A stretch of DNA of 64,000 bases from the IMG/VR virus record IMGVR_UViG_3300042691_037641, positions 1 to 64,000 of that record. One strand, given 5' to 3'. Position 1 is the first letter of the stretch, and each line of letters opens with the position of its first letter. The position numbers and the translations under genes were made by a program. Shown one piece after another: positions 22,433-60,180 of this stretch. Below the pieces are notes generated by a model that was given only the letters and a program-made list of their open reading frames with translations, made no database searches and was not told the DNA's origin. The stretch is from a virus.

Positions 22433-22891
22433 ATGGCCTTAGGAACTACATATGGTATTAATTTTCCTTTCGCGGACTCACAGACCGGCAAGTATTTATT
22501 TTTAACTCAAACCGCAGATGAGGAAATAAGAACGGATTTAATTCACCTTCTTCTAACAAGAAAGGGGTCGAGATATTTTTTACCTGATTTTGGTACTCGT
22601 TTATATGAATTTATTTTTGAACCACTTGACGGTCCTACATTTTCAGAGATTGAGGCCGAGATTAGAGAGTCCGTTGCAGAGTATTTACCAAATTTAACCA
22701 TAACAAAAATATCGGTTAAAGCCGCTTCCGAAGGTGAAGAAGGTAAGGGTGAGTATGTAAATGACGATGGTCAGAAGGTGTATCGAGTACCTGGTATAGG
22801 TCAAATGGAGCACACAGCGGTCGTAAGAATTGACTACACAATAACAGATAGTGTTTTTAATAGTAGTGATTTTGTTATAATTAATATTTAA
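22433..22891 (+). CDS. 25: Baseplate wedge protein gp25
   Basis: A 152-residue gp25-family protein, the wedge component at the base of the sheath. RKGSRYFLPDFGTRLYEFIFEPLD matches the family motif where T4 has TTRKGSRPF and then a P-E-F-G stretch. The short ASEGEEGKGEYVNDDGQKVYR insert is an added loop. It is followed by the gp6-like gene seven bases downstream, as in many contractile systems. Confidence 0.88.
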   Translation: MALGTTYGINFPFADSQTGKYLFLTQTADEEIRTDLIHLLLTRKGSRYFLPDFGTRLYEFIFEPLDGPTFSEIEAEIRESVAEYLPNLTITKISVKAASEGEEGKGEYVNDDGQKVYRVPGIGQMEHTAVVRIDYTITDSVFNSSDFVIINI

Positions 22892-22897
22892 TAGTAC

Positions 22898-24736
22898 ATG
22901 GCAAATAAGAAAATATCATATACCACCCGTGACTTCGAAGCGATAAGGACCGAACTCATCAATTTTACAAGAACGTATTATCCTGACCTCATTGACAACG
23001 TTAATGACGCTGCCGTGTTCTCGGTTTTATTAGATTTAAACGCGGCTGTCACTGACAACCTACACTTCAACATAGATAGGAGTATTCAAGAAACAGTATT
23101 ACAGTATGCCCAACAAAGGTCATCAATATATAACATCGCTCGAACTTACGGGCTAAAAGTACCAGGTCAAAGACCATCGGTTGCTTTGGTTGATTTGTCA
23201 ATTACGGTACCGGCATTTGGAGATAAAGAGGATTTGAGATATTGTGGTATATTGAGAAGAGGGTCACAAGTAAATGGGGCCGGTCAAGTATTCGAAACCG
23301 TGTATGATATAGATTTTTCATCGGCGGTTAATGCTGAAGGGGCTCCGAATAGATTAGTTATACCAAATTTTGACTCAAACAATATTCTTTTGAACTATAC
23401 AATTGTTAAACGAGAGACGGTTGTTAACGGTATTACAAAAGTATTTAAAAGAGTTATAACACCTAATGATGTAAAACCTTTCTTAGAGATATTCTTACCT
23501 GAAAAAAATGTATTAGGTGTTACAAGTGTATTATTGAAAGATGGAACACAATACGCTAGCGTACCGTCAACACAAGAATTTTTAGGTTTAGATAATAGAT
23601 GGTATGAAGTACAAGCTCTTGCTCAAGATAGAGTGTTTGTCGAAGACCCAACCAAAACATCAGACTCACCTGGAATAAAAGTAGGTAAATATATTACAAC
23701 ATCGAATAAATTTATTACAGAATTCACACCTGAAGGTTATATGAAAGTAACTTTTGGAGGAGGAAGTCAATCCGCGGATGAACAATTAAGGGAGTTTGCA
23801 AGAAACGGAATGAGTTTGGATTTATATAAATACTCAAATAATTTTGCGCTAGGTAGTACGTTAAAATCTAATTCTACATTGTTTATTCAATATAGAATTG
23901 GTGGAGGTTTAAGTAGCAATGTTGGTGTTAATGTTATAACTCAAATCGGTACGGTTTCTTTTTATGTAAACGGACCATCATCATCAGTTAATACAAGTGT
24001 GGTTAATTCATTGAGGTGTAATAATGTAACCGCTGCAATTGGAGGGGCTAACATACCAACCATTGAAGAGGTTAGGAATTTAGTATCATTTAACTTTGCG
24101 GCTCAAAACAGAGCGGTTACGGTTAATGATTATGACTCAATTATCAGAACAATGCCATCACAATTTGGGGCACCGGCCAAAGTTGCCATCACTGAAGAGA
24201 ATAACAAAATTAAAATTCAAATGCTGGCTTACGATGAGACAGGTAAATTAACTGAAGTTATATCTAACACTTTGAAAAATAATGTGGCTAATTACCTATC
24301 AAATTACAGAATGTTGAATGACTATATATCGGTTATGTCGGCAAATGTAATCGACCTTTCTCTAATAATTGAGGTTGTATTGGATAGTAGTCAAAATCAA
24401 GGGGCTTTAATATCACAAGTAATTAATATAGTAACAAACTTCTTTAGCCCTTTGAACAGACAAATGGGGGAAAACGTTTATGTGTCAGAATTAAGAAGAC
24501 AAATTCAGAATGAAAATGGAGTGATAACTTTGGCAAATATAACATTCTATAATTTGGTTGGAGGACAATATTCCTCATCACAAACCTCACAAAGATATTC
24601 TGACCCCGAGACAAGACAAATCGAATTAATCGATGACACTTTATTCGCCGAACCAAATCAAACCTATCAAATCAGGTTCCCTGGTAAAGACATTACTGTA
24701 AGAGTTAAAAACTTCAAGACAGTCAATTTCTCTTGA
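22898..24736 (+). CDS. 6: Baseplate wedge protein gp6 / J-like
   Basis: A 612-residue protein of the gp6/Baseplate J family, the wedge protein that forms the inner baseplate ring. The opening KKISYTTRDFEAIRTELINF and DAAVFSVLLDLNAAVTDNLHFNIDRSIQETVL matches gp6, and AAQNRAVTVNDYDSIIRTMP is the family's typical internal block (T4 has a comparable RAVTxxDY). The C-terminal SVFVSELRRQIQNENGVI-type block ends the fold. The order gp25 then gp6 supports the call. Confidence 0.88.
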   Translation: MANKKISYTTRDFEAIRTELINFTRTYYPDLIDNVNDAAVFSVLLDLNAAVTDNLHFNIDRSIQETVLQYAQQRSSIYNIARTYGLKVPGQRPSVALVDLSITVPAFGDKEDLRYCGILRRGSQVNGAGQVFETVYDIDFSSAVNAEGAPNRLVIPNFDSNNILLNYTIVKRETVVNGITKVFKRVITPNDVKPFLEIFLPEKNVLGVTSVLLKDGTQYASVPSTQEFLGLDNRWYEVQALAQDRVFVEDPTKTSDSPGIKVGKYITTSNKFITEFTPEGYMKVTFGGGSQSADEQLREFARNGMSLDLYKYSNNFALGSTLKSNSTLFIQYRIGGGLSSNVGVNVITQIGTVSFYVNGPSSSVNTSVVNSLRCNNVTAAIGGANIPTIEEVRNLVSFNFAAQNRAVTVNDYDSIIRTMPSQFGAPAKVAITEENNKIKIQMLAYDETGKLTEVISNTLKNNVANYLSNYRMLNDYISVMSANVIDLSLIIEVVLDSSQNQGALISQVINIVTNFFSPLNRQMGENVYVSELRRQIQNENGVITLANITFYNLVGGQYSSSQTSQRYSDPETRQIELIDDTLFAEPNQTYQIRFPGKDITVRVKNFKTVNFS

Positions 24737-31855: not shown

Positions 31856-32624
31856 CAAATATCTCTTTACCATACCCGTAGGTACCAAGGCAATTCAATT
31901 ACCAATAGAATTGAAATGGGATAATTATGGACAAAGTGAAAGTATAGAAATTTGGGAAAAAAATGCAATCACTGAAGTAATTGGGTTAGCTAAAGATTTT
32001 GACATATTAAGATTTGGTCATGATGAGTATGGTAGTAATCAACAAAGCGCGATTAATTACAAATTTTATTTTTTCAATGACTTAACATCTACTTGGGATA
32101 ATGATTATCAGGCCGAAGGTTTCACCACTGAAGAAAATTATTATATAAGTGATGGATTTGAAAGGTCCTTTTTCAAGTTAGATTTTTACGATACAACAGA
32201 TACCAACACACAAACAATTTATTTTACGGCAATATTACCAATACAAACAGGAGAAGAGATTTCGGTATCCATAAGCCCATATTTACCAAACGTATTGGTA
32301 GAAAGACCTGAGTTTGTGTTAGACTATACTAAAAATAGAGAAGGGTTTTTCTTATACTGGATGAGAGACAAAAAGTTTTTAAATTTAGATACATTTTATA
32401 TGACTGCTAAATTTTTTGATGCAAAACAAGGAGTTTTTGTAAGAATGATGACAGTTAATCCATCATCATTACCCGACCCAACCTCGTTTGACACTGGTAA
32501 GTATTTTTATAGGAAAGTAGAATTAAATTATAATAATTACACGTACAAAATATTCAATTCAAGTGGAGCAAGAATAGGTATAGGGTCACCCATAAATTGG
32601 TACGAATATATTAATCCATCATAA
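31842..32624 (+). CDS. Structural protein, baseplate/fibre module
   Basis: A 260-residue beta-rich protein with aromatic and acidic strands (YLFTIPVGTKAIQLPIEL, then REGFFLYWMRDKKFLNLDTF). The start lies inside the previous gene and the stop TAA overlaps the next ATG as TAATG, so translation is coupled on both sides. The family is not recognised. Confidence 0.55.
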   Translation: MAANNKYLFTIPVGTKAIQLPIELKWDNYGQSESIEIWEKNAITEVIGLAKDFDILRFGHDEYGSNQQSAINYKFYFFNDLTSTWDNDYQAEGFTTEENYYISDGFERSFFKLDFYDTTDTNTQTIYFTAILPIQTGEEISVSISPYLPNVLVERPEFVLDYTKNREGFFLYWMRDKKFLNLDTFYMTAKFFDAKQGVFVRMMTVNPSSLPDPTSFDTGKYFYRKVELNYNNYTYKIFNSSGARIGIGSPINWYEYINPS

Positions 32625-33772
32625 TGCAGGATAGGATATACAATATTAAAATTTCACCTGAAGTTATTAGTAATAAAATATTTCCTAAAATATTTTATCA
32701 GAGTTATAACTTCCCCAAAGCTCAAAATCCGTGTTGTGACGAACCGATACCCCCTCTAACAGGAGAAACCCCATCAACGGTCTATGTTTATTCATCCATG
32801 ACCGAAATTGTATCTGCCGACAATGGAAATTCAATTTTGAACATCACAATCCCTGTTTTTTTAACTGAAAATACGGTAGATGTCGGATATTACAGTGTAT
32901 TTGACGGTATGGTTACACAGCAAAATACTATGATGAATTTTTTATTTGAATCTAGTATTGCGTTTCCTTATACCTACTCATTTTATAATACCTCAGATAA
33001 ACAATTTAAAAGGTATTTGAAGTTTGCTGATTATAAGATTGATTGGGGAGATGGTACTGTTAGCGAAACTGTAAATTCGACCGCACCAACACCATATGTT
33101 CATACTTACGCCTCTGATGGGGAGTTTGAAATAACCATGTCCGGATTTAGTCCATGGGGATTTAATGTTATAAAGAAAAAAGTTTACACTCCATATACTG
33201 ACATTGTGGCAAGTAACCCAAATGGAGAAGCGTTCTTTATCGCTGCCGGTGGTAATTGGTCGGCAACACCAATTTCGTACAATTATATAACGCAATATGA
33301 TGCTGAATGTGAAACAAATAATCCTTGTTGTGAATTTCAGTCAGTACCATTCCTTATAACAGGTTTTAGTACATCTTCGTTATCTGAAGTTGAATTATAT
33401 GGACCGACTAAATTTAGAATAGACCAAAAAATCACAGGAGCGTCTGGAACTGTTGCGGTATTTAAAGGGGTTGCCGCAAATAATTCATTCACCGCATATA
33501 CCATCAATGATATTGAATATCGTGATTATCCTGATGGTAAAACCACTTTTAGTGTATATTCATCAGGATGTACAGAGTCATTAATTTGTTCGGCAACCAC
33601 TAAAGACGAAGCTCTTCTTAATGTAATAAGTGAGCCTGAAATATTATCTAATGTGTTTATTGAAAGGGGTAAAAATACTGCTTTGGAACAAATACAGAGA
33701 TTGGGTGAAGTGTCAACTTTTGGCGATTTAAGAAACTACGGATATAAATACTTTACGATAAAAACCCAATAA
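32624..33772 (+). CDS. Tail protein with PKD-like domain
   Basis: A 382-residue protein. Residues about 120-185 contain the PKD-like core DYKIDWGDGTVSE, then PYVHTYASDGEFEITMSG, the WGDGT/HTY pattern of this immunoglobulin-like fold that mediates surface contacts. The N-terminus has a Cys pair in NPCCDEPIPPL, and another ETNNPCCEFQ lies near residue 228. The protein starts on a TAATG overlap. Role inferred: fibre or decoration protein. Confidence 0.62.
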   Translation: MQDRIYNIKISPEVISNKIFPKIFYQSYNFPKAQNPCCDEPIPPLTGETPSTVYVYSSMTEIVSADNGNSILNITIPVFLTENTVDVGYYSVFDGMVTQQNTMMNFLFESSIAFPYTYSFYNTSDKQFKRYLKFADYKIDWGDGTVSETVNSTAPTPYVHTYASDGEFEITMSGFSPWGFNVIKKKVYTPYTDIVASNPNGEAFFIAAGGNWSATPISYNYITQYDAECETNNPCCEFQSVPFLITGFSTSSLSEVELYGPTKFRIDQKITGASGTVAVFKGVAANNSFTAYTINDIEYRDYPDGKTTFSVYSSGCTESLICSATTKDEALLNVISEPEILSNVFIERGKNTALEQIQRLGEVSTFGDLRNYGYKYFTIKTQ

Positions 33773-37700: not shown

Positions 37701-37735
37701 ATGTTGGAATAGATTTTACAATAAGTTGTAGTTAA
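34733..37735 (+). CDS. Baseplate wedge protein, gpI / T4 gp7-like
   Basis: A 1000-residue protein. Residues about 345-485 fit the P2 gpI / TssG / T4 gp7 core: VEKILQIFGRSFDDTKKYIT, then NTGNDIPSQLLKNLAQTLG and CLNAAFLFKSKGTRKSIEVL and MRLIGAPDALVDFNEYVY. The GTRKSIE and G-A-P pattern recurs in gpI-type tail proteins. The N-terminal 340 residues are a beta-rich part, and the C-terminal part from about 490 is an added region with Cys-rich CKPCRVTDNIYSDDCP. Together with gp6 (22898) and gp25 it would complete the wedge. The assignment is from motif recall and is moderate. Confidence 0.6.
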   Translation: MAIKKFTCPPQASGQGSFSDNLVGFQLTTGGGLTQANFEFSTNVVEKVNRTFNTGTFSDPVSLDALGIGSVNQSKLIFENNFKVYPNFDLSQITNFVQYGSMSKRMSASITTIISKFPAGIEVNKLGKDYSDGVTAFNVIYYPTDNQSSIEISVAKMANPFGVDFTVNATRNLQLKEVQVSPLRNMTVEYAKYSLYVNGVGYNIKRIIPTDSLSTGVLKIFVEGRPFIGTSEIFDTLILRPNDQEVSRVFNEDLDEVENFLLNRNISPIYTAAFKVPLESDDGRFYVATQNITWMLDGKWNLDIRTPNFTNYIEKVGEASENFDGYLTNLVSRFLVTGAFKDFDTQGQKVEKILQIFGRSFDDTKKYITALGFMNSVNYNTGNDIPSQLLKNLAQTLGFNTDISPITNSDFLSSVFGQKNNDKSSFAGVSVQQTPDELNYQYYRNLCLNAAFLFKSKGTRKSIEVLMRLIGAPDALVDFNEYVYVADQKIKLSQFNKKFALISGGTYLEQGSVLDPTDIFSIFGVQYTGFTTNFIIDDVNIGIGAYPIDGQGYPIAPDDTENYFFQIGSGWFESTPKHRSPAQPNLTNSVFTGANPNYQTSLIPYTYGQIYLDRYRNFPYMNMGFKLTQIPDNNKSWTNDEIGLRENLDGNFNARYYVDNEKLVLNAKNIDLFMNPGQGLLYDVWYMSRQFNYPIPNQGLAWVQPTRCNPEPYSMYPSRDGVDWTVINPQPRQKTFFEFAQTFWQNTINVRNRQYFGAYPTLESIYWRYLESQKNAGIENNNFNYQSMMEYVQGMGDYWIRLVEQMIPATTLWNTGIKYENSIFHRQKYVWRRQAGCQLVAVPCKPCRVTDNIYSDDCPVQTANCSLFPWNSTSTIQSFDAILGNLVNKYLEQNNLTFGQCVSDSINSAWFVDIRLQGIQIIQYPFFNGVGYNSSGLSYPSNSQWYDGINEALMSLSNFGYSYYLTEDNTVVIINNVCSLNSSGIIFEINVGIDFTISCS

Positions 37736-40700
37736 TGGCGGTATGTTCTTTAAGATATAGTGTTTCAGTTACTGGTGATTGCCTCAACACTGGAGTTGGC
37801 GCATTTACGGTTTCTATTACGGGCACAACACCACCATTTTATTATCAGTTTATATCTCCTTTTGATGACCCAATACCTGTTGCTTTAGGTAATGGGGTAA
37901 CTTCATTAACAAGAACAAATCTAACACCAAACACATATACACTTGTTTTATTTGATAGTTGCTCACCACCAACACAAGTAATTATTAATGCTGTAGTATC
38001 TGATGGAGTTTGTGTATCACTATTAACACATGAAAATACCACTTGCGGATTACCAAATGGGTCAATTACCGCGACAACCGATAATAATTTAATTTCTACT
38101 CAGTATTTTCTTTATGAGAATACTAGAGGTTTAGTAAATTCTGGCTCATCTGTTTTAGATTATTTTATTTTTAATAATTTATCAGCCGGAACCTATTATG
38201 TAACAGTAAATGATGGAGGGGGGTGTAGCGGTAAATCAGAGAGTTGTATCATAAAACCGTCAACCGAGTTTGATTATGGTTTTTATGTTGTTGATGACTC
38301 AACCTGCACAAGTGAGGCGGGTAAAGTTTTTATTACGGGATTAACGGGATTTGCACCATATACTTATTCTTGGAGTAATGGAACATTTCAGTCATCAATT
38401 TCAGGACTAAGTAGTGGAATTTACAGTGTAAATGTTACTGACTCAACCGGATGTTTAGTATCTAAAAATGTAGTAGTTGGTACGGTGCCACAAGTAGGAT
38501 TTGCTGAGATTATAACAATTGCTCCAAGTTGCTTTGGTAATGATGGTCAAATAACAGTAGTTGTCACCGGAGGTACTGCACCATATTATTATCAAGCCAG
38601 TAACGGACAAAGTTTAATTACATTTAGTGAAACATATACTCTTTCAGGGTTAGCTTCTAATAACTATGTTATAACAGTCACTGACGCCGCTTTATGCACA
38701 CAGACAATTACACAACCATTAACACCCCCAAATGGGTTTACAATATTGAATGTCGGTATTATAAACTCAACCTGTAATAATTCGTCGGGGGCTATATCAC
38801 CCATTACAATTTTGGGAGGTACCCCACCGTTTGTGTATAATTTAACTTATCCATCAGGTAACTCCATAGAACAAACGGTAAATGGATTCTCTAATCAATT
38901 TCAAGGGTTATCGGCAGGTACATATACATTAACTATATCTAATGGGCCTTGTATATTCTCAAACACATATACCATAAATAACACTGAAAAATATACTATA
39001 ACAACCTCATCAACAGGGACTACTTGCCAAGGTAGTAATGGAAGAATTTCGGTTGCAGTATCATCTGGAGCAACATTACCACTAACATACCAATTAACAG
39101 GACAGCCAACTATAAGTAATACTTCACAAACTGCGGTGACTTTTAATAATTTGTTTAGTGGTAATTATCAATTAACAGTTACTGACGCTCAATCTTGTAC
39201 CCAAACTCAAACTATAAATGTTACAGCCATTGATAGTATTGATTTTTCATTAGTGGGAACAAATTTGACAGGATTTAACAATGGAACAATACAATTATAT
39301 ATAACTGAAGGCCCCGCCCCTTACACAATTCAATGGAGCAATAATGTTAATGGTCAAACGGGAACAAGTATCAGTAATTTATCTGCCGGAACATATGGGG
39401 TACTAGTTACCGATTCAAATGGATGTCAATTGTCAAGAGAAATTACACTCCAAGGTTACAATAACAGAGGAAGTTATGAGATTTATAATTACTGTCAATC
39501 AGAATTCGTATCCAACGGATTAACCATATTGAAAAAAACACAACAAATGTTTTTGGAGGGTTATTATGACTTATTATCAGGTGAAACGAATTGTGTTTTA
39601 AATGAGGCGACATTTATTGCTGAGGTGATAGTGGATGGTAATTCAATACAACAACAATTTTATGTTAGTAATAGTCTATCTGATTACCCAACAGACGAAA
39701 TTTGGATTGATACAATAGAGGGTATGTTATTGTCTTTCGAAGCGATTGGTAACGTAATAATAAACACCATAGATAATCAAATAACTATCGAAAGTAGCTG
39801 TAGTGATTTAGGATTATCTTTAAGTAACGCGGAAGTACAGGTAAACTTGAGAATTGAGTACGATGTTTCATGTGTTTGCTCAATTGAACCTACCCCTGGA
39901 CCCGCGGTTGAGGAGTGTGATATGTTGTACATTAATGGCTCTAGTGAATTTTATATTTACACATTTTCATCTAATACAAGTACTTTGTTGACCGTGGACC
40001 AATATGATTTTAATAGCAATAGTATTGCCTTTACAACGAGTAAGTTGTGGGCTTATTTTGACAATGGTGTTTCTACAACGATAAGAGAATGGTATATATC
40101 TACTTCACAGTTTACTTCTATATTCAATAGACAAATATTCATACCATTTTTACTTGGTGATGCGATATATGCTAAAAATGATAACTTACTAGTCGGTGTT
40201 AACGCTTCGGTTTCCCCAAATAGATTTGTTGAAATTGACATTACTGGTTTATCACCTGTAGTTACAAATAAAACTTATTTGGGAACAAATAGAAGTGTTT
40301 TAGGTAGTATTGCTAACAATGAAAACGGGCAATTTTTAATATTGCAAACAGACACTACGTTTGCCCCATTCAATGAGTACTATATAAGTTTGATTGATTC
40401 AGATAATTACAATAATTTATTTGATATCAACATAACTTTATCCATATTTGGAGAACCTGCCGGTGTGTTCATGGACGGCTCTCAATATTATTTAGTTGAT
40501 GACATTTCGAACATATACACAATATCTAATACACCTCCATATACTGTTACTCTTGACTCTACAGTTGGAGGAGCCAGCATCATAAATAGCTTAACACAGT
40601 TAAGTAGATGTTTTACAGAAATAATGGAATTACCTTCAATAGTTTGTGGTGAGTCACCTGCGGTTTTATTGGCTACAGGGGATTTAGACGGAATATACGA

Positions 40701-41220
40701 TACATACTTGGACTTAGGAGAGTCAACTGGAAATGTAGAAATAACATTTAACACAATTTTTGACCAAACTCCGGTAAGATACCAAATAATTTGGAATGGT
40801 AATATAGTTGCGGACTCATTATTCTTAGGAGAATTTATTTCCTCAAATCAAAATATGGTCGATGAAGTTTTAAATACCACAACTTTGAATAAATATGTGT
40901 ACTATAATGGTAACGGTAACGCATCAACCGTACAACTTACCACAGATTGGTATACTAACGGACAAGAAATAAATGTTAACTATACATTATCTAATATTGC
41001 CGGTAATGAAGCTAGAGGAAATGGTGGTTCCCCAGGTCAAATAGGTGTTGTTCCCGATTATCCATTTGTAAATTCACCCGCATTTACACCTGATATTAAA
41101 TTAGGATTTAATAAAACCTCAGCGGAGCCTAGATATGTAACAATAAGAGCAATAGGACTAAGTAGTGTTTCAGAAGGATTTAATTTTGCTTTTCAATTTG
41201 GAGTTACACTCTGCCCATGA
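37735..41220 (+). CDS. Surface fibre/adhesin-like protein with SprB-like repeats and propeller-like module
   Basis: An 1161-residue protein. Residues 1-570 hold about seven SprB-like repeats of 70-90 residues. Typical copies contain G-x-P-P-F/Y-x-Y, then GLSAGTYTLTISNGPC or GLSSGIYSVNVTDSTGC, each usually starting with a Cys and a G-S/N-I motif such as CGLPNGSITAT. SprB repeats come from gliding-motility adhesins of Bacteroidetes. Residues about 725-970 are a propeller-like module, ECDMLYINGSSEFYIYTF, related to modules in the minus-strand 3407-residue protein. The C-terminal 190 residues are a separate beta-rich end. The ATG overlaps the previous stop (TTAATGG). Inferred long fibre binding host surface. 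Confidence 0.72.
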   Translation: MAVCSLRYSVSVTGDCLNTGVGAFTVSITGTTPPFYYQFISPFDDPIPVALGNGVTSLTRTNLTPNTYTLVLFDSCSPPTQVIINAVVSDGVCVSLLTHENTTCGLPNGSITATTDNNLISTQYFLYENTRGLVNSGSSVLDYFIFNNLSAGTYYVTVNDGGGCSGKSESCIIKPSTEFDYGFYVVDDSTCTSEAGKVFITGLTGFAPYTYSWSNGTFQSSISGLSSGIYSVNVTDSTGCLVSKNVVVGTVPQVGFAEIITIAPSCFGNDGQITVVVTGGTAPYYYQASNGQSLITFSETYTLSGLASNNYVITVTDAALCTQTITQPLTPPNGFTILNVGIINSTCNNSSGAISPITILGGTPPFVYNLTYPSGNSIEQTVNGFSNQFQGLSAGTYTLTISNGPCIFSNTYTINNTEKYTITTSSTGTTCQGSNGRISVAVSSGATLPLTYQLTGQPTISNTSQTAVTFNNLFSGNYQLTVTDAQSCTQTQTINVTAIDSIDFSLVGTNLTGFNNGTIQLYITEGPAPYTIQWSNNVNGQTGTSISNLSAGTYGVLVTDSNGCQLSREITLQGYNNRGSYEIYNYCQSEFVSNGLTILKKTQQMFLEGYYDLLSGETNCVLNEATFIAEVIVDGNSIQQQFYVSNSLSDYPTDEIWIDTIEGMLLSFEAIGNVIINTIDNQITIESSCSDLGLSLSNAEVQVNLRIEYDVSCVCSIEPTPGPAVEECDMLYINGSSEFYIYTFSSNTSTLLTVDQYDFNSNSIAFTTSKLWAYFDNGVSTTIREWYISTSQFTSIFNRQIFIPFLLGDAIYAKNDNLLVGVNASVSPNRFVEIDITGLSPVVTNKTYLGTNRSVLGSIANNENGQFLILQTDTTFAPFNEYYISLIDSDNYNNLFDINITLSIFGEPAGVFMDGSQYYLVDDISNIYTISNTPPYTVTLDSTVGGASIINSLTQLSRCFTEIMELPSIVCGESPAVLLATGDLDGIYDTYLDLGESTGNVEITFNTIFDQTPVRYQIIWNGNIVADSLFLGEFISSNQNMVDEVLNTTTLNKYVYYNGNGNASTVQLTTDWYTNGQEINVNYTLSNIAGNEARGNGGSPGQIGVVPDYPFVNSPAFTPDIKLGFNKTSAEPRYVTIRAIGLSSVSEGFNFAFQFGVTLCP
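39910..40640 (+). repeat. Propeller-like module on the plus strand
   Basis: Within the 1161-residue protein: ECDMLYINGSSEFYIYTF, TTSKLWAYFD, DAIYAKNDNLLVGVN and GQFLILQTDTTFAP. It shares start, strand order and loop positions with copies 1-5 on the opposite strand. Confidence 0.6.
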
Positions 41221-41250
41221 TAAAAAAATAAAATTGCAATAAATAATTAA

Positions 41251-43686
41251 ATGTCATTAACATATTACAATTTTGAAGTTTGTTGTCCAAATTTAGGAAC
41301 AACTTTTTCGATACCGGGCATAGATGGGACAGGTTTTATTGCTGGAGAAACATTCTATGTTGAATTATCCGTTTTTTCGGGGTGTGCGTATGCAATTAAT
41401 AGTTCTTATATAGGGACGGGTGATTTATTCTATAATGAAACTGATTACACATTAACACCGTATAGTAGTTGTGGAGCGTGTACTGGAGCGACTGGAAGTT
41501 GTTTTCCTCCCGTACCAACCCCAACACCGACAATTTACTATAGTTCTGACACAAGATGTGGTGATAATATCCTCAAAAGAAATGAATGTGACCCGATTGT
41601 GATATTCCCTATGGGTGTTCAGTGCATTGGGACCAACCCAACGCTGAGTACAATACCAAATGGTTCATTATCTCTTTTAATTACTGGAGGTACACCACCA
41701 TATACAATAAGTTGGAGCACTGGAGGAAATGGACTTTTTTTAACTGATTTGGCAGTAGGTAGTTACAGCTCAATAGTCGTTGATTTTTACGGTGATTTTA
41801 CCGCCTATACAACTTGCACTTTGACAGCCCCAACACCCGTACCCACAGAAACTAGACTTACTAACACACCTACAGTAACACAAACCGTCACCCCAACCTC
41901 AGACCCAAACTATCCATCATTTTGTCTTACTCTTACTATTGGTACTCCATCACAAACTGTTAATATGTATTTTACATATTCAGGTACCCTATTAAACAGT
42001 ATGCCTCAGTATTTTAGTAACAATGATTATTACCTTTATTGGTCCACAGAATTATATCCGAATAGTTGGGTTTTGGACGGACCATTGAGTGATGGTAATA
42101 TTGTAAATTACAATAATACAATTACACCTTTAAGTGATTGGACATTTTTGAACCCTAATAATCAAGGCGCAATAAACGGAGTTTTAGGGGAATGTGCCGC
42201 TTACGATAATTTGTGTTTTTTCTATAGACAAATCAAGGGTCCGGGTAACCCGACATATGAGGGTAATGTGGAATTATTTTATAATGGTATGGTAAATGGA
42301 TATCCATCTTGGCAATCGTCGGATGGAACATTTATACTTTCATGGAATATCGCAAATAACAGATGGGTTTTGGATTTTACAACTAATCCTTCGTATGTTG
42401 ACCCAATAAATAATAGTACAACAATACCACCTTTAACTGGGTGGCAACAACCTGGTATGGTACCACCAAGTATCGCCGGTGCTTATATCGGTAATTGTAC
42501 ACCTACCACTACAAGTACTGCTGATGTATTGGGAGGAGGGTCAACAAGTACAGGAGGGGTTTCAACTGGAGGGGGGTTAGGAGGGTCAACATCAACTAAT
42601 AATCCGTCTTCGGGTAACGTACCATTCACCGATGCTGTTGAAGACGGAAGAACTGGTAGTGGTGATAACACTTCAAATGTTAATCAGTGCGAATGTATTG
42701 CTGTAAGAACGATAAGCACGTATCCTGGAACTGCTTTTTATACAGATTGTGACGGTAACCCAGCTCAAATTTCGGTACCTGGAGGGTCTGGTATAAATTC
42801 TAGGGCTTGTATATGTAGACGAATAGGTACAATTGTAAGTGGTGGTGTATATGAGGAGCCGTGTCAATCGGTACAAGGTTCGAGCGGTGGTGCTACAATT
42901 ACCAATAATTGTTTGGATATATTAGGTACGTGTGTTCAAAATGTCACAGGCGGAGGAACTAGAAGTGCTATTACTACTGCTCAAGATACTGGTATAATTA
43001 ATGACGGCAATATTACACTTAGAGCAACTGGAGGGTATCCACCATATCAATACTCAATAGATGGTGGATTAACTTATAAAAGTACCCCTTTGTTTAATAA
43101 ATTGGGTGCTGGAAGTTATACTACAGTCATAAAAGACTCATCGGGTAATACCTTTACAAGTAGAGTTGTATTGTTAGCTCCACCAAGTCCTACAATTTAC
43201 CAAGTATCATTACAAACAACTAATGTAATTCCAAGAAGTGGGATAAATACGACTAGCCGACAATTTACATCCACAATAAAAGTAACGCCAGAATTACCCG
43301 ATGGAGTTCAGATAACTTTTGATTTAATACATACGAATACCTTCAAAAGAGCGCCAATATTAAGTGCGGCCACTTTGGTAACCAATACGTTGTTGAAGAA
43401 AAATTCTTTAAACTATAGTGCTAATACTATCAATTCATCTACCGCAACCACACAAAATACAGTTTCAGGTTGTCAACAAAAAACAATATATATAAGTAAT
43501 TTGACTGAGACTTGGTCATCAGTCAAACTAGTTAATTCGGACACTTTATCTTTAAATACTTCAACTACAGTCACAAGAAATTCTATAGATAAATGTTATG
43601 TGGGCGAATCAATTGACGACTTTATACTAACTAATTTAACAATAAGCGGGTGTACAAATTGCGGCGTTGCAAACATTACAGTATAA
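41251..43686 (+). CDS. Modular fibre-like protein with Cys-rich, SprB-like and duplicated domains
   Basis: An 811-residue mosaic. Residues 1-90 (EVCCPNLGTTFSIPGIDG, then GETFYVELSVFSGCAY) resemble the GCCFPYP module of the minus-strand giants. Residues 110-190 have a SprB-like GGTPPYTISWSTGG and a GSYSSIVVD strand. A short TPT linker follows (195-225). Next come two tandem copies of one domain with NSWVLDGPL and NRWVLDFTT endings. A Ser/Thr/Gly linker leads to the Cys module CECIAVRTIS and FYTDCDGN. A final SprB-like GGYPPYQYSIDGG copy and C-terminal beta region finish it. The gap before it has AATAAATAATTA but no exact octamer. Inferred surface fibre. Confidence 0.65.
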   Translation: MSLTYYNFEVCCPNLGTTFSIPGIDGTGFIAGETFYVELSVFSGCAYAINSSYIGTGDLFYNETDYTLTPYSSCGACTGATGSCFPPVPTPTPTIYYSSDTRCGDNILKRNECDPIVIFPMGVQCIGTNPTLSTIPNGSLSLLITGGTPPYTISWSTGGNGLFLTDLAVGSYSSIVVDFYGDFTAYTTCTLTAPTPVPTETRLTNTPTVTQTVTPTSDPNYPSFCLTLTIGTPSQTVNMYFTYSGTLLNSMPQYFSNNDYYLYWSTELYPNSWVLDGPLSDGNIVNYNNTITPLSDWTFLNPNNQGAINGVLGECAAYDNLCFFYRQIKGPGNPTYEGNVELFYNGMVNGYPSWQSSDGTFILSWNIANNRWVLDFTTNPSYVDPINNSTTIPPLTGWQQPGMVPPSIAGAYIGNCTPTTTSTADVLGGGSTSTGGVSTGGGLGGSTSTNNPSSGNVPFTDAVEDGRTGSGDNTSNVNQCECIAVRTISTYPGTAFYTDCDGNPAQISVPGGSGINSRACICRRIGTIVSGGVYEEPCQSVQGSSGGATITNNCLDILGTCVQNVTGGGTRSAITTAQDTGIINDGNITLRATGGYPPYQYSIDGGLTYKSTPLFNKLGAGSYTTVIKDSSGNTFTSRVVLLAPPSPTIYQVSLQTTNVIPRSGINTTSRQFTSTIKVTPELPDGVQITFDLIHTNTFKRAPILSAATLVTNTLLKKNSLNYSANTINSSTATTQNTVSGCQQKTIYISNLTETWSSVKLVNSDTLSLNTSTTVTRNSIDKCYVGESIDDFILTNLTISGCTNCGVANITV

Positions 43687-43700
43687 AAAAAGTTTTTCTA

Positions 43701-43708
43701 TATTTATA
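43701..43708 (+). promoter_or_regulatory. TATTTATA box before the 796-residue fibre gene
   Basis: Exact octamer four bases before the ATG at 43713, in a 26-base gap. Confidence 0.45.
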
Positions 43709-43712
43709 GACA

Positions 43713-46103
43713 ATGGGATATATACTCAAAAATACGTCAGGACTAATAAATACCAAACTAACTGACGCTGGAAGAAGAAAATTATCACAAGGTAAATTCA
43801 ATATCTCCTACTTTCAAATAGGTGATAGTGAAGTTTCTTATAATGGTCTTGCCGATTTTTATAATCAGTATGATACAAATATTCTTGAAGCTGGATTTAA
43901 TGACCAAAATAGTTCAGGTGTTCCGCAATCAAACAAACAATATGTAAAATACCCATACTATGTGGATGGTAATGGAGGTAATACTTATGGAATACCTTAC
44001 ATGGACTCTATTGTAAGTCCGGTATTCAATACCGCAGTTATAAGAGGTTTTTTTACTGACGGACCTCCATATTCGGTGTTAACGAATGGACAGTATGTTG
44101 TTAATTCTAATTATGTTACAAACATGTCAACTATAGTTGGTACTGATAGAATTACAATTCAATATAGAGGATGTAATACAAATACAACAAGATTACCACA
44201 AGAGGGGGATTTGGTTACAATATATTATGATGGAGCCGGTTTCTCAAATTGTGAGTGTAATCCGGTACAATTTCCTCCTGCCGCAACACCGGCCCCTTCA
44301 CCATCAGCCTCAGCTGCGGTACCTGAACCATTCCCTTGTTTAGTTACACCAACACCCAGTCCCACAAACCCACCGTGTCCTGAGCCCACACCTGTTCCTT
44401 TGTGTCCCCCTGAACCGGCCCCTAATTGTTCTATGACAATGTCAAGTTGTTATCATATTTTAACTTATCGTATTATTGCGGTTTGTGGGACTGAAATACA
44501 ACTTGATAGACCGGCACCGGATTTTACAACATTCAATAGCTCATGTTATGCTAGATTGTTGATTTATCCTCCTAATATGACTGAGATTTATGACAGTTAT
44601 ACACCCCAAGCTCATTGGAACGATGATGTAATTAATTTTGAATCGATATGTGGTTATGACCAATTCGACGTTAAGATATGGAACATGAATATTCCTTGGT
44701 CAGAAGACCCCGCTGGACTAATACCATCTTTGTATAGAGGGTATTCGTACTTCAATTCAAGAAGTTATGTAGGGTCAAAAGAATTTTTTGGATATATGTC
44801 GGATAGTGGACAGACCGATAGTAGCTCGGTGTATTTTTATAATTCTTTTGACGATAGGATTACGGTAACACCACAAGAACAGAAAGCAATTGCAATTGTT
44901 CATTACACGAATAAAACAATAGATTTATTTTATGGTGAAAAATTTGCAATGGAGGCCACTGACCCAGATAATCCCGTAGAAACCACAGGACAGGCTAGGA
45001 ACTTCAAAGTACATTTACCTTGGATTATGTGGCACAAAAATCCTGATTGTTGCAACGGACAAATTTTTTATGTTGACCCTCCTGGATTTGATGGATTAAA
45101 CTTATTTCAAGTACAGTATCTTACATCAAATAAGAACGAGGATATGAATGACCCTGGAATGAGATATTATCACTTGTGGGATACTAACGCTAATGATGAC
45201 GGGTATCCAAGCCGAGTTGGTAAGGTATTCCCTGACCACAAATTGGTTATTTTTGATGACGATGAGATAATTGCTGCTATGTCATACAAATCTAACAGAA
45301 ACTGGACATTACCCTCACCAAGGGTTTCATTAGTGGCACCCAACACTTGTGGAGATGACAATTCCTCAACCACTGGTATATTATCAGGTAGTAACCAAAC
45401 TATGTATATAACCTATAGATTTACAAATGAAAATGGGTTTACTAATTCTTTACACTGTAATTACTATATAAAACAACAAGGTCCTAATTTAGATTGTGGT
45501 AATCCTATATCACAAAATGTAAGTGTTAGATTTGGTCCTGAGTTTCCGTGTTTGTCTTGTGTAGGGTGTGAAACAGGATGCGCGATGACTTCGGGATTTT
45601 TCGCAGAAAGTATAGAAATTATTTGTCAGATAGTTGAAGGTAATCAAAGACCAATTCCTGATGAATGGAAGATTATTGATTATACATCACAGATAAGTAA
45701 TACAATAGTTGATGGATGTATTTTACAAAGTGGTTTAACTGCTTCAACATTTGTTATAACACAAGAATTGTATGACGCAGCAGATTATTACAATTTGAAT
45801 GATTATATACCTATGGTTACTTTAAATCCTTCAGGACAAACTTTAAATTTTGGTGATGAATATTATTTTTATGGAAACATAGAAACGGATATTCAGGCGA
45901 CAATATATGAGATGAGGTATAAGGTAAATCTAAGTTTTTCTGAGTTTTTATCACCATCTAATCCCACATATAGAGGTGGTTCAAGTTACATAACCGACAT
46001 TGGTCTTTACGATAATGAAAAAAATCTTATGATTATATCAAAAATGCAGTCACCTGTATTGAGACAGGGTATTCAGCAGTTTTTGGTAAAATTTGATTTT
46101 TAA
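43713..46103 (+). CDS. Baseplate/fibre-associated protein with Pro/Ser linker
   Basis: A 796-residue protein. The N-terminus LKNTSGLINTKLTDAGRRKL, then SQGKFNISYFQIGDSEVSY resembles the start of baseplate-linked proteins in other T4-like and marine phages that open with a TKLTxxGRxKLAxG/IGDSE block. Residues about 187-236 form a Pro/Ser/Ala linker (PAATPAPSPSASAAVPEP). The rest is a beta-rich domain with a Cys-rich LSCVGCETGC segment near residue 610. The TATTTATA box precedes it, and the resolvase starts three bases after its stop. Confidence 0.6.
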   Translation: MGYILKNTSGLINTKLTDAGRRKLSQGKFNISYFQIGDSEVSYNGLADFYNQYDTNILEAGFNDQNSSGVPQSNKQYVKYPYYVDGNGGNTYGIPYMDSIVSPVFNTAVIRGFFTDGPPYSVLTNGQYVVNSNYVTNMSTIVGTDRITIQYRGCNTNTTRLPQEGDLVTIYYDGAGFSNCECNPVQFPPAATPAPSPSASAAVPEPFPCLVTPTPSPTNPPCPEPTPVPLCPPEPAPNCSMTMSSCYHILTYRIIAVCGTEIQLDRPAPDFTTFNSSCYARLLIYPPNMTEIYDSYTPQAHWNDDVINFESICGYDQFDVKIWNMNIPWSEDPAGLIPSLYRGYSYFNSRSYVGSKEFFGYMSDSGQTDSSSVYFYNSFDDRITVTPQEQKAIAIVHYTNKTIDLFYGEKFAMEATDPDNPVETTGQARNFKVHLPWIMWHKNPDCCNGQIFYVDPPGFDGLNLFQVQYLTSNKNEDMNDPGMRYYHLWDTNANDDGYPSRVGKVFPDHKLVIFDDDEIIAAMSYKSNRNWTLPSPRVSLVAPNTCGDDNSSTTGILSGSNQTMYITYRFTNENGFTNSLHCNYYIKQQGPNLDCGNPISQNVSVRFGPEFPCLSCVGCETGCAMTSGFFAESIEIICQIVEGNQRPIPDEWKIIDYTSQISNTIVDGCILQSGLTASTFVITQELYDAADYYNLNDYIPMVTLNPSGQTLNFGDEYYFYGNIETDIQATIYEMRYKVNLSFSEFLSPSNPTYRGGSSYITDIGLYDNEKNLMIISKMQSPVLRQGIQQFLVKFDF

Positions 46104-46106
46104 TTT

Positions 46107-46706
46107 ATGAAACAAACATTAAAGGAAAGTCCAAAAGTACTCGGACTTGATGTGAGCACGAAAACAATAGGGTGGGCGTTGTTTGATATTCAGACAAGAC
46201 AATTATTAGAGTTAACTCATATCTCACCAATCCCAAAACCCAAGGAAGAAAATAAAATCAAAGAACTACTTTTGAAGAGTGAAATCTTCAGAACAAAATT
46301 AGAAAAATATAGAGGTCTCGGAATTACAAAGGTAGTTATTGAGGAACCATTATTAAATTCTAATAATGTCTATACCATTCAAACACTATTGAGATATAAT
46401 ACACTTATTACAAAAGAGATATATGATGTGTTGGGTATTGTACCCGAATTCATATCAACATATAACTCACGTAAAAACGCTTTTCCTGAACTTGTTAAAC
46501 AAAATGATAAAAACAAGTATGTTCTATTTGGGGGTTATCCTAAGGACTGTGATAAGAAACAAATAATTTGGGATTTAGTTGCCAAAAGAGAACCACAAAT
46601 TCAGTGGCAATACACAAGAAATAATACGCTTAAAAAGGAAAATTTTGACCAATCTGATGCTTATTGTTGTGTGTTAGGATACATGAAACAAGAAACTATT
46701 TGGTGA
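46107..46706 (+). CDS. RuvC-like Holliday junction resolvase
   Basis: A 199-residue RNase H-fold nuclease that would cut branched DNA intermediates before packaging. It has the RuvC layout: VLGLDVSTKTIGWALFD (Asp15), TKVVIEEPLL (Glu79/80), and a C-terminal DQSDAYCCVLGY pair of Asp near 183-186. These correspond to the D-E-D-D set of RuvC. T4 uses the unrelated endonuclease VII, so this phage has a different resolvase. The stop TGA is immediately followed by the TAA complement of the next minus-strand gene. Confidence 0.75.
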   Translation: MKQTLKESPKVLGLDVSTKTIGWALFDIQTRQLLELTHISPIPKPKEENKIKELLLKSEIFRTKLEKYRGLGITKVVIEEPLLNSNNVYTIQTLLRYNTLITKEIYDVLGIVPEFISTYNSRKNAFPELVKQNDKNKYVLFGGYPKDCDKKQIIWDLVAKREPQIQWQYTRNNTLKKENFDQSDAYCCVLGYMKQETIW

Positions 46707-47813
46707 TTAAAATGCGGATAATGGTAGTCCGTACCATACTGCGGCATTTATTTTCAGATACAAATTATTATTATCGTAGCAAATATCTCCAGTTGCTCCC
46801 TCAGGCTCAACCCCACCAGGTTTGGGTGTATACGGAGTCCTCAATCTTAGTTGACTGTAACCCGCAATCCCTGATACTGCACCAACACCACTTATATCCA
46901 TAAGACTAGTAGGTAAAACATTGTTTTGACCAAATCCTATAAACCCTTTAGTTGGGTCTTCACCACTTATAAAAATTTCAGGTTCACCATTTTTAACTTC
47001 ATAATCACCATTTACATAAAATGCGATAAAACCGGAGTCGTTTGTATCATTCGTTGAAACTATGTTTAGTCCATTAGATGGGCCAACTTTTGCTAAAAAT
47101 GAATCACGAGCAATACCGAATGGGGCAACACCTGAGGTTGTACCACCAGGGTCAATATTACCCATCAAAAGACCACCGCCTCCATCACTCAAAACCCCAA
47201 TTGCGGTAGATATTAGAAAACCTGAAGAAAGCATAATAACTTCTTGAAAATCGTTAAATAGGGTTCCACTTAAATTATTGAGATTGTCATAGTATCTTAT
47301 TTCACTTTGTGCATTTACCGAAAAAAATTGAAAAGTTGACCGACCGTTTACAGACGGAGTGTTTACCCCTAATTTAGTTATTTGAAAAGCACTACCATTA
47401 CCTGACTCGGTGTGAGTGACAACCATTTGAGAATGTTCCCCATCTTCTCCAAAAATAGTGGATTGAGTTGATTCCCCTGTTGCAATAGGTTGTATAAAAA
47501 TATGTTGTACACATGGGTATATGTCATTAACATAAAGATTATTTATACAATTGACAGAACCACCTGAAAATATCGGAAAATCGGTAACTTCAACACCCAA
47601 AGTACCTGATACCCCAAATAAACTTAAAGTTTGGTTTTCATAATTATAGATTCCACTTGATAAACAACAATCGTTAGCATCTATTAATTGAGCAATAGTT
47701 ACTTTATAAGACGAACCATTATCACTTTGACTTAAATCTTCAGGTCTTGCTATGTGAACAAAATCTGTTAAATTTAAATAAGGTGCTGGTATTTGGTCAG
47801 TTAGAATAGGCAT
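46707..47813 (-). CDS. Fibre-like protein, paralogue A
   Basis: A 368-residue protein paralogous to the neighbouring 342-residue protein. Shared landmarks: an N-terminal DFVHI/DYIHI followed by ANDCCLSSG, then VNCINNLYVNDIYPCV, and the C-terminal block MDISG...GYSQLRLRTPY ending near GDICYDNNNLYLKI. The middle is Gly/Ser/Asn-rich and beta-like, typical of fibre shafts or tips. The stop codon abuts the resolvase stop on the other strand. Confidence 0.65.
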   Translation of the reverse strand: MPILTDQIPAPYLNLTDFVHIARPEDLSQSDNGSSYKVTIAQLIDANDCCLSSGIYNYENQTLSLFGVSGTLGVEVTDFPIFSGGSVNCINNLYVNDIYPCVQHIFIQPIATGESTQSTIFGEDGEHSQMVVTHTESGNGSAFQITKLGVNTPSVNGRSTFQFFSVNAQSEIRYYDNLNNLSGTLFNDFQEVIMLSSGFLISTAIGVLSDGGGGLLMGNIDPGGTTSGVAPFGIARDSFLAKVGPSNGLNIVSTNDTNDSGFIAFYVNGDYEVKNGEPEIFISGEDPTKGFIGFGQNNVLPTSLMDISGVGAVSGIAGYSQLRLRTPYTPKPGGVEPEGATGDICYDNNNLYLKINAAVWYGLPLSAF

Positions 47814-47835
47814 AAATTATTAGTAATTTTGATTA

Positions 47836-48864
47836 TTATGGTATTACACTTAATTGAGCTCTCCTCCATCCCGAGCCGGTTTTAACGTATATGTAAGGTA
47901 CTGAACTTGCATTAATTCCCCAACAAATATCGCCTTCCTCACCATTAGTATCGGCACTGCCACTTGGATTATATGGTGTTCGTAACCTTAATTGATTGTA
48001 ACCTGTCGCTCCGCTTATATCAACTAATGAAGTTGGGTCGACATTTCCCTGACCAATACCCATAAAACCTTGATTAGCGCCATCGCCATCTATATGAATA
48101 TGGGGGTTTTCATTTGACGCTTGAACATCGGTACCGGCATAAAATCTAATATATTCTGGGAAAGGACCCGCTCCTACAGCGTATTGAGTTATTATATTTA
48201 ATCCTCTTGCATTCGTTGATGAATAAAGACAAGTATCTCCTTGAGCTCCAATTTTTTCATAGGTAGTATTGTTATTACCTCTAACATTCAAAATTAATCC
48301 GGCACTTCCCCCTTCTGAAAAAGCACCAACACCTGCAACGATTGTATCGTCACCTAATAATGTTACCGTATGTAGTCCATTGGCATTTTCATCATAGTAA
48401 AATCTTGACCTACCATCATAACTAAAAAAATCAAAAGTATGTTCAGGTGTTTCTGTGTTTAATCCTATCCTTGTAGAACCAGGGTCACTAGTATGGTCAA
48501 CTGTGAAACCACTGAATATACCGAAATAAGTATTTCCTGAACTTAAAGGTTGTATTCTTATATTAGTTACACATGGATATATTTCGTTGACGTACAATTG
48601 ATTAATACAGTTACCTGAACCACCAGTGAAATTAAAACCTGATACAGAAAATGCAACATTTCCCGATGAATTTATAAAAGTCAAAGTACCATCCGAAACA
48701 GTACCTGCAGTTAAACAACAATCTGATGTTAGCTCGAATATTTGAGAAATTTGAGCTTTGAATGAGTCACCTGCGGCATTTGTAACGGTAGATGCGGTAT
48801 TCACTATGTGAATATAATCAGTTGGATTTACACTTACCGCTTGTTGTCTTTGTGTTAGAAACAT
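47836..48864 (-). CDS. Fibre-like protein, paralogue B
   Basis: A 342-residue protein with the same organisation as the 368-residue neighbour: PTDYIHIVNTA at the start, TSDCCLTAG, then GNCINQLYVNEIYPCV, and DISGATGYNQLRLRTPYNP near the end followed by GDICWGI. The divergent middle carries the differences. A gene duplication with variable centres is the simplest reading and fits receptor-binding proteins. No box or hairpin is seen in the 24-base gap upstream. Confidence 0.65.
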   Translation of the reverse strand: MFLTQRQQAVSVNPTDYIHIVNTASTVTNAAGDSFKAQISQIFELTSDCCLTAGTVSDGTLTFINSSGNVAFSVSGFNFTGGSGNCINQLYVNEIYPCVTNIRIQPLSSGNTYFGIFSGFTVDHTSDPGSTRIGLNTETPEHTFDFFSYDGRSRFYYDENANGLHTVTLLGDDTIVAGVGAFSEGGSAGLILNVRGNNNTTYEKIGAQGDTCLYSSTNARGLNIITQYAVGAGPFPEYIRFYAGTDVQASNENPHIHIDGDGANQGFMGIGQGNVDPTSLVDISGATGYNQLRLRTPYNPSGSADTNGEEGDICWGINASSVPYIYVKTGSGWRRAQLSVIP

Positions 48865-48888
48865 ATTAGTTAATTATTTTATATATCT

Positions 48889-49209
48889 TTATTGTGGTTG
48901 GTCTTGAAAGTAATATGACTCATAATCCTGAAATTCAAAACATAATCCATGTTGAAATTGTTTATAGTCACAACATATTATTGTTATGTAAAGACAACAA
49001 GCTGAGTTTGGGTCTCTTAATAGTATTACAGTTGTACCATCGGGTATGCCTGTAAGAACAAAAGGACATTCATTACCTGTTATCGCTGATAAAGGTATTG
49101 TTGCAAAAAAATCAGTATAATCATCAATATTTGCATACGCAAGTATGGTTGCATCTGGCAACATGGTTTCGCCAGTCACGGTCATACATGTTAATGCGGA
49201 AAATGACAT
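48889..49209 (-). CDS. Small Cys-rich protein, minus-strand module
   Basis: A 106-residue protein with a Cys-rich second half (ACCLYITIICCDYKQF) and an aromatic, acidic C-terminus (FEFQDYESYYFQDQPQ). The family is not recognised. It is preceded by a TATTTATA box on its own strand and lies between the giant protein and the paralogous fibres, so it may be an accessory of fibre assembly. Confidence 0.55.
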   Translation of the reverse strand: MSFSALTCMTVTGETMLPDATILAYANIDDYTDFFATIPLSAITGNECPFVLTGIPDGTTVILLRDPNSACCLYITIICCDYKQFQHGLCFEFQDYESYYFQDQPQ

Positions 49210-59484: not shown

Positions 59485-60180
59485 TTAACATCCTGGTGTT
59501 ACAATACCCAAAGAATTTAAAGTGGAGATAATCAAATTATAATAATATGATGGAGTATCTCCGTTGTTTATACCTAATTGGTAATTGAAATTTGTTAAAT
59601 AATAATCACTTACATTGTTAGGTGGTGAGTAGATACCGGCGTCTACAAAAGTTGTTTGTACTAAGGTTTGGAATGTAGGATATAATTCGTTATTTACTGC
59701 GAAAACGACCCCCTTAAATCCGTATGTTAAAGATGGTAATAAACTTCTCAAATTTGCGGTATCTATTGCATATTCTGAATCTATTGGAGGAATTGATGGG
59801 TCAAAGTTATTACCACTTGTATAAACACCCGAGCTTTCATCTTGGAATATTAAGTTTATCACTAAACTAACATCGGTATCTACTAATCTATTGAAATTTC
59901 TTGGAGTTGCTAAACACTTTACAAATCTTTCGTTATAATTCCATGAACCAGGAGTATTCATCTCCAGTATTTTTACTCTTTCATTATAAAGAACAGGGTC
60001 ATTGTTATAAACTCCTATTAAACAAGTCTCAAATTGACCACCAGGTGCAACCATAACTTCTAAAGGATTTTTTGTAGAATCCATAGAACCTGAGTTATCA
60101 AACCAAATATTAATTTCAGTATTTGCATTTATTGATTCAGTACTTATAAATGTTACCACTAAATCACATGGTGGCGGTGA
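59485..60180 (-). other. C-terminal von Willebrand factor A-like domain
   Basis: [20 protein letters not shown], then [16 protein letters not shown]-x-S-x-S of a MIDAS metal site after a beta strand, as in VWA domains (T4-like phages rarely carry them). Downstream [15 protein letters not shown] and [15 protein letters not shown] could be other VWA strands. The third MIDAS residues could not be placed with certainty, so the call is moderate. Confidence 0.6.

Follow-up and report, generated by a model that had tools for sequence, protein, structure and literature searches.

Analysing 64,000 nucleotides of viral DNA (positions 1 to 64,000 of the IMG/VR virus record IMGVR_UViG_3300042691_037641, hereafter the window), we identified a gene encoding a 1161-residue protein that opens with an array of seven repeats of the SprB family and that probably forms a fixed-length baseplate rod of seven beads carrying host-contact domains, in a phage whose host is probably a member of the Bacteroidota. 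Five properties of this array protein were directly observed, namely its repeat family, a fixed repeat number, linkage to a baseplate gene cassette, a domain shared with the protein encoded upstream and a variable end. What is new is that the array is fixed at seven beads, is linked almost strictly to the cassette, shares a domain with the upstream protein and has ends that can be exchanged: our literature search found no paper describing the seven-bead family, and the combination of SprB repeat and phage retrieved a single paper, on bacterial toxins.

The repeats were counted with a profile built from the array relatives themselves (hereafter the phage-family profile), for which independent E-values (i-E) are given below, together with those of the Pfam SprB family (PF13573) where noted. 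The array protein and its immediate neighbours are laid out as follows:

37735..41220, plus strand: gene of the SprB-array protein, 1161 residues, with seven repeats, the shared alpha/beta domain and a variable end piece
37744..37998, plus strand: SprB repeat 1, residues 4-88 (phage-family profile, i-E 4.3e-14)
38008..38262, plus strand: SprB repeat 2, residues 92-176 (phage-family profile, i-E 3.7e-17)
38269..38490, plus strand: SprB repeat 3, residues 179-252 (phage-family profile, i-E 3.6e-16; PF13573, 6.3e-7)
38494..38733, plus strand: SprB repeat 4, residues 254-333 (phage-family profile, i-E 2e-20; PF13573, 5.1e-12)
38737..38988, plus strand: SprB repeat 5, residues 335-418 (phage-family profile, i-E 4.8e-17)
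38989..39234, plus strand: SprB repeat 6, residues 419-500 (phage-family profile, i-E 2e-17)
39235..39462, plus strand: SprB repeat 7, residues 501-576 (phage-family profile, i-E 1.8e-19; PF13573, 1.2e-6)
39463..39879, plus strand: conserved alpha/beta domain behind the array, residues 577-715, supported by family conservation and by homology to the C-terminal domain of the 1000-residue protein
39880..41217, plus strand: variable end piece, residues 716-1161, of which module 716-975 recurs in a 3407-residue protein
41251..43686, plus strand: second protein, 811 residues, with two SprB-type repeats (121-198 and 570-645) recognised by profile matches, and a homologue in the related locus L008
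34733..37735, plus strand: upstream protein, 1000 residues, whose C-terminal domain (882-1000) is common to the array protein

An earlier note, made from the sequence alone, had placed SprB-like repeats in the 1161- and 811-residue proteins and proposed a Pfam search, which retrieved both above the gathering cut-off of 28, the 1161-residue protein scoring 64.5 bits (E 6.7e-18) and the 811-residue one 35 bits (E 1.1e-8). Scanning the 68-kb record in six frames with PF13573 yielded seven matches, five in the 1161-residue protein, two in the 811-residue protein and none elsewhere. The phage-family profile recognised seven full-length repeats over residues 4-576 of the array protein, every one with an i-E below 1e-13, and two in the 811-residue protein (i-E 2.6e-8 for residues 121-198 and 3.1e-11 for residues 570-645). 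The SprB assignment of the array protein is far beyond chance; that of the 811-residue protein lies closer to the Pfam threshold and partly leans on likeness to its neighbour. SprB was also matched by all 45 array relatives scanned (best E 2e-28). Matches to Por_Secre_tail, CarboxypepD_reg, Y_Y_Y and BiPBP_C were discarded as cross-hits of beads resembling immunoglobulin (Ig) domains.

Searches of viral contigs revealed at least 136 relatives of the 1000-residue upstream protein and at least 491 of the array alignment; our reading covered the top 80 of either set, some contigs being present in both, and remoter members could differ. This is a large, widespread and uncultivated phage group, in which 88 of the 89 distinct complete relatives carry exactly seven repeats over an array span of 566-591 residues, and in nearly all loci, whether fetched via one gene or the other, the array gene directly follows the gene of the 1000-residue protein. 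The single-sequence search recovered one close relative (L008, 65% identity), whose repeats align one to one with those of the window; the same search with the 811-residue protein returned no relatives from viral contigs, although L008 encodes a homologue. Two departures from seven were seen: the 89th relative (L147, 10004-13138), in which six repeats were detected with about 90 additional residues N-terminal of them, and a shortened, possibly frameshifted reading frame with four repeats (L161, 10751-12226). Comparing repeats across genomes, those at the same position matched each other with mean median scores of 63-99 bits, against 43-55 bits for the best other position, repeats 1-3 being the most conserved; since same-position matches beat other positions, the array repeats are old and are not being homogenised. 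The proposal that the phage may have acquired a host adhesin fold stays plausible, transfer from host to phage being one possible direction, but the array is an old, fixed seven-repeat core rather than a recent, variable grab.

Behind the array, median identity of the family to the window was 39% at residues 577-720 and about 10% or less past residue 720. Profile comparison revealed homology between the conserved domain and the C-terminal domain of the 1000-residue protein (hhalign probability 93%, E 3.5e-7; hmmsearch i-E 3.6e-4), and the predicted models of both share the order of secondary-structure elements H-E-E-H-E-E-E (H, helix; E, strand). The end piece beyond it reaches about 790 residues in some relatives. 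Unrelated end pieces were found behind arrays that are 82-83% identical (L017 compared with L022, L024 and L026) and again between L136 and L131, all such array pairs being 79-83% identical, and the module at residues 716-975 has five further copies in a threonine/proline-rich protein of 3407 residues on the opposite strand. Judging from these sequences, the end pieces undergo modular exchange, and they may bind the host. The 3407-residue protein (49248-59471, minus strand) is one of two very large threonine/proline-rich proteins, the other having 1480 residues (59485-63927, minus strand); threonine makes up 25-27% of them and both match phrog_15511, a family of unknown function.

From these elements we propose that the 1161-residue protein would be a structural baseplate appendage. 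Its N-terminal 576 residues would form a rod of seven SprB-family beads, each usually with a conserved cysteine pair, closed by the same alpha/beta domain that ends the upstream-encoded protein; the N-terminus would probably be the proximal one. The exchangeable end piece, present in most but not all members, would most likely contact the host or a host surface polymer, so that a constant bead number would keep the distance spanned from the baseplate constant, and specificity would be set by the exchangeable end.

The beads might instead be adhesive themselves and not mainly a spacer, holding the phage to the polysaccharide, mucus or biofilm matrix that surrounds the host. This reading, which follows proposals made for the Ig-like domains found in other phages, we consider unlikely but worth serious consideration: the end piece is shorter than 60 residues in about a quarter of the relatives (24/89), all of which retain seven beads, the 811-residue protein carries beads too, and SprB acts as an adhesin on the cell surface (PMC9870892). 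A count fixed at seven and conserved position by position nevertheless resembles a part of set length, and not an avidity array such as those of the bacterial relatives, in which the same profile counted 6-48 repeats.

The affinity of the repeats to Bacteroidota largely holds. By record title, the best cellular relatives belonged to Bacteroidota in 79 of 80 loci, and the repeat consensus of the phages is nearly identical to that of the bacteria over its full length, with both cysteines at the same positions; these two positions hold cysteine in 78/82% of 771 phage repeats, versus 92/96% of 1559 bacterial ones. The single other label among the 80 is that of a metagenome-assembled genome labelled Rickettsiales (L186), possibly a mislabelled bin. 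The closest cellular relatives were mainly Chitinophagales, Saprospirales and other Bacteroidota, with few Flavobacterium, so the attribution of SprB repeats to the gliding adhesins of Flavobacterium and its kin was too narrow. An origin from Bacteroidota adhesin-type proteins is plausible, as is this direction of transfer. Identity of the array repeats to the host proteins found is only about 30%.

Structure prediction (AlphaFold2, residues 1-725) returned seven beta-sandwich beads with a mean predicted local distance difference test (pLDDT) score of 83.8; the predicted template modelling score (pTM) was 0.35, so that the relative placement of the beads is not determined by the model. The beads of the array thus appear, in the predicted model, Ig-like (PKD/FN3-like). 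Pieces of GhpA, the grappling hook of Aureispira, were the best solved structures in Foldseek (E 1.1e-18), and GhpA was likewise the best PDB match by sequence (E 5e-5), followed weakly by phage neck and decoration proteins (E 2e-4 to 2e-3). The structure comparison suggested in the earlier note thus ended on a Bacteroidota cell-surface hook, with a fold that is itself general, because VIA-align does not separate GhpA from fibronectin and other Ig-like chains, which it places level with it.

These last results bear on a rival reading, in which the array consists of a generic Ig-like domain of phages with a superficial SprB likeness and no special relation to Bacteroidota. It is favoured by the VIA-align ranking, by the weak matches of decoration and neck proteins to the array profile and by coliphage T5 (AY543070, 103803-103859), where a lone PF13573 match sits at the cut-off with 27.5 bits (28.2 together with neighbours). 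As T5 has one, lone marginal PF13573 matches are no proof of Bacteroidota. The T5 match is however partial, spanning just 19 of 37 positions, whereas the repeats of the window are full-length and fit the bacterial consensus including the cysteine pair, and SprB is both the top Pfam family of the array protein and the sole family hit by all 45 relatives scanned. With nearly all of the best cellular relatives in Bacteroidota, the generic reading is largely disfavoured and we regard it as improbable; the assignment to a general Ig-like phage family, which the earlier note had named as refuting its idea, was not borne out.

A Bacteroidota host of the phage family is likely, because the lack of Shine-Dalgarno sites and a Bacteroidota-like ribonucleotide reductase (NrdA) support it independently of SprB. 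Bacteroidota largely manage without Shine-Dalgarno sites; such motifs preceded none of the 25 window genes and 2 of 96 genes (~2%) of the relatives, compared with 0-4% in three Bacteroidota phages, 34% in a Microcystis phage and 81% in T4. The NrdA of the window is 45-47% identical to Bacteroidota genomes and about 40% to Cellulophaga/Tenacibaculum phages, whereas the remaining listed phages with known hosts reach no more than about 30%. Relatives of the gp6-like wedge protein occur in a Flavobacterium phage, though a Microcystis phage has one as well. A count of the Bacteroidota promoter motif was dropped as host evidence, the Microcystis phage being as enriched as Bacteroidota phages. Seven long relatives (177-322 kb) all possess a tail sheath gene and a gp6-like gene (7/7 for each), and are therefore large contractile-tailed phages; a terminase search of these relatives with phrog_2 gave weak matches or none.

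The position of the array gene ties it to the baseplate. In the window, the gp25-like and gp6-like genes are followed by five more proteins and then by the 1000-residue, array, two-repeat and 796-residue proteins, the remaining landmarks being:

22433..22891, plus strand: gp25-like baseplate wedge subunit (phrog_261, E 8.4e-16)
22898..24736, plus strand: gp6-like baseplate wedge subunit (phrog_219, E 4.3e-25), with relatives in Flavobacterium phage immuto
43713..46103, plus strand: 796-residue protein at the cassette end, in the same position in L008

Neither the 1161- nor the 811-residue protein matched a known fibre or baseplate family in the PHROG and NCBIfam libraries, and it is gene context that makes them candidate baseplate or fibre components. 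The label of tail fibre given in the earlier note hence agrees with a place in the baseplate cassette, and derives from that cassette rather than from virion data. Within the cassette, a 382-residue protein (32624-33772) contains a stretch that looks PKD-like by eye (DWGDGTVSETVNSTAPTPYVHTYASDG) and has no Pfam match. Cysteine accounts for 1.4-3.2% of the appendage proteins (37735-49209) and for 6.6% of a 106-residue protein, lysine and arginine being low; the corresponding cysteine content is 0.65% in the T4 and 0.36% in the immuto baseplate/fibre genes. At the start of the window, a 1656-residue protein (2-4972) shows a weak OmpA-like match at residues 880-937, below cut-off.

Several observations weigh against a baseplate rod with host-contact ends in a Bacteroidota phage. 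The presence of the array protein in the virion is deduced from gene position. The 1000-residue upstream protein was modelled with a mean pLDDT of 46; of this model only the C-terminal domain has an extended confident stretch, a fold search with it gave no significant match and, the rest being poor, it predicts no mode of attachment for the rod. The frequent shortness of the end piece reported above means that a receptor-binding tip on the array protein is not essential. In a search of 84,980 species genomes of bacteria and archaea, the profile of the upstream gene retrieved no cellular contig and so gave no direct link to a host. Finally, SprB repeats are absent from the cultured Bacteroidota phages immuto, pT24, phiST, Larrie, crAss001, FCL-2 and phiSM; the array therefore marks this group and not Bacteroidota phages generally. 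The repeats, which the earlier note took as its main host clue, are supported in that role by the Shine-Dalgarno and NrdA evidence, but a single PF13573 match is not diagnostic, as T5 illustrates, and none of these seven phages has one.

Could the array protein be a host-type secreted adhesin, encoded as a moron gene and displayed on the infected cell without being part of the virion? A clear case exists elsewhere, in the megaphage LR756502. In the array protein, however, the N-terminus (MAVCSLRYSVSVTGDC...) shows no visible signal-like start by sequence inspection, no signal-peptide predictor having been run, and the search for a type IX sorting domain gave nothing above cut-off and no NCBIfam match, the lone weak Por_Secre_tail match falling below cut-off at residues 215-247, inside repeat 3. 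As the gene moreover lies inside the baseplate cassette across the whole family, we attach next to no probability to this option. The array protein is no gliding adhesin, with sorting domain and variable repeat number absent and a signal peptide not visible.

Gliding-adhesin mimicry, in which the array would engage the carrier or track of SprB, or compete with SprB, to travel or reach a receptor, appears highly improbable. The type IX C-terminal domain of SprB serves export and carriage. The repeat family is the same as that of the host adhesin, and gliding adhesins have been suggested as receptors of Bacteroidota phages (PMC13288928), but the array protein lacks a C-terminal type IX domain such as SprB possesses (PMC12635249), and its repeats share the low identity to host proteins given above. 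A bolder and very improbable extension would see in the array an ancient exaptation of a host adhesin rod that engages a conserved Bacteroidota surface partner, the candidates being the gliding track, the adhesin carrier or the adhesin itself; if true, a jumbo phage group would ride or hook the gliding machinery before injection.

The baseplate rod that we favour provides a usable host marker for widespread, uncultivated large phages, with the calibration that the diagnostic feature is a seven-bead array coupled to the upstream gene, and not a single SprB match. A repeat family that varies in bacteria and is held at seven in phage also offers a natural test of whether particle geometry sets appendage length, and the shared domain and exchangeable ends point to where specificity is probably swapped.

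Compared with known systems, the array protein shares PF13573, a bead length of about 80 residues and the cysteine pair with SprB of Flavobacterium johnsoniae and other Bacteroidota proteins. SprB, however, is a 6497-residue cell-surface protein (PMC9870892) exported through type IX secretion (PMC12635249), unlike the seven-bead array protein, which has neither a visible signal peptide nor a sorting domain. GhpA of Aureispira, a Bacteroidota (PDB 9flp, 9fly, 9flw and others), is likewise a rod of similar beads, but in a bacterial hook of 5898 residues, with neither the conserved alpha/beta domain nor baseplate linkage. The freshwater megaphage LR756502 (642 kb; PMC9723777) also has SprB repeats in a phage genome, there in a 1670-residue host-type secreted adhesin with 13 repeats (L009:13684-18696, 514-519 kb region), whose signal-like N-terminus and gliding-type C-terminus, both judged by eye, are secretion features that the array protein lacks; no homologue of the upstream 1000-residue gene was found in the LR756502 record. 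An SprB-like match also occurs in LR745206. The T5 decoration protein and the neck whiskers gp24 place an Ig bead on the virion exterior and show weak profile similarity to the array, but as one domain or a partial match and not as a seven-bead array. In Flavobacterium phage immuto, fibre genes likewise come after a gp25-like and then a gp6-like wedge gene (~26% wedge identity), but the fibres of this phage are of other kinds and its whole genome is devoid of SprB repeats. The nearest counterpart is A0A6J5LD72 (714 residues; UniProt/BFVD), a protein of an uncultured Caudovirales phage and the best viral Foldseek match (E 2.0e-64, 33% identity over 724 alignment columns): known by the automatic name 'SprB repeat' only, and differing by the additional C-terminal end piece of the array protein, it very probably belongs to the array family as a tip-less member.

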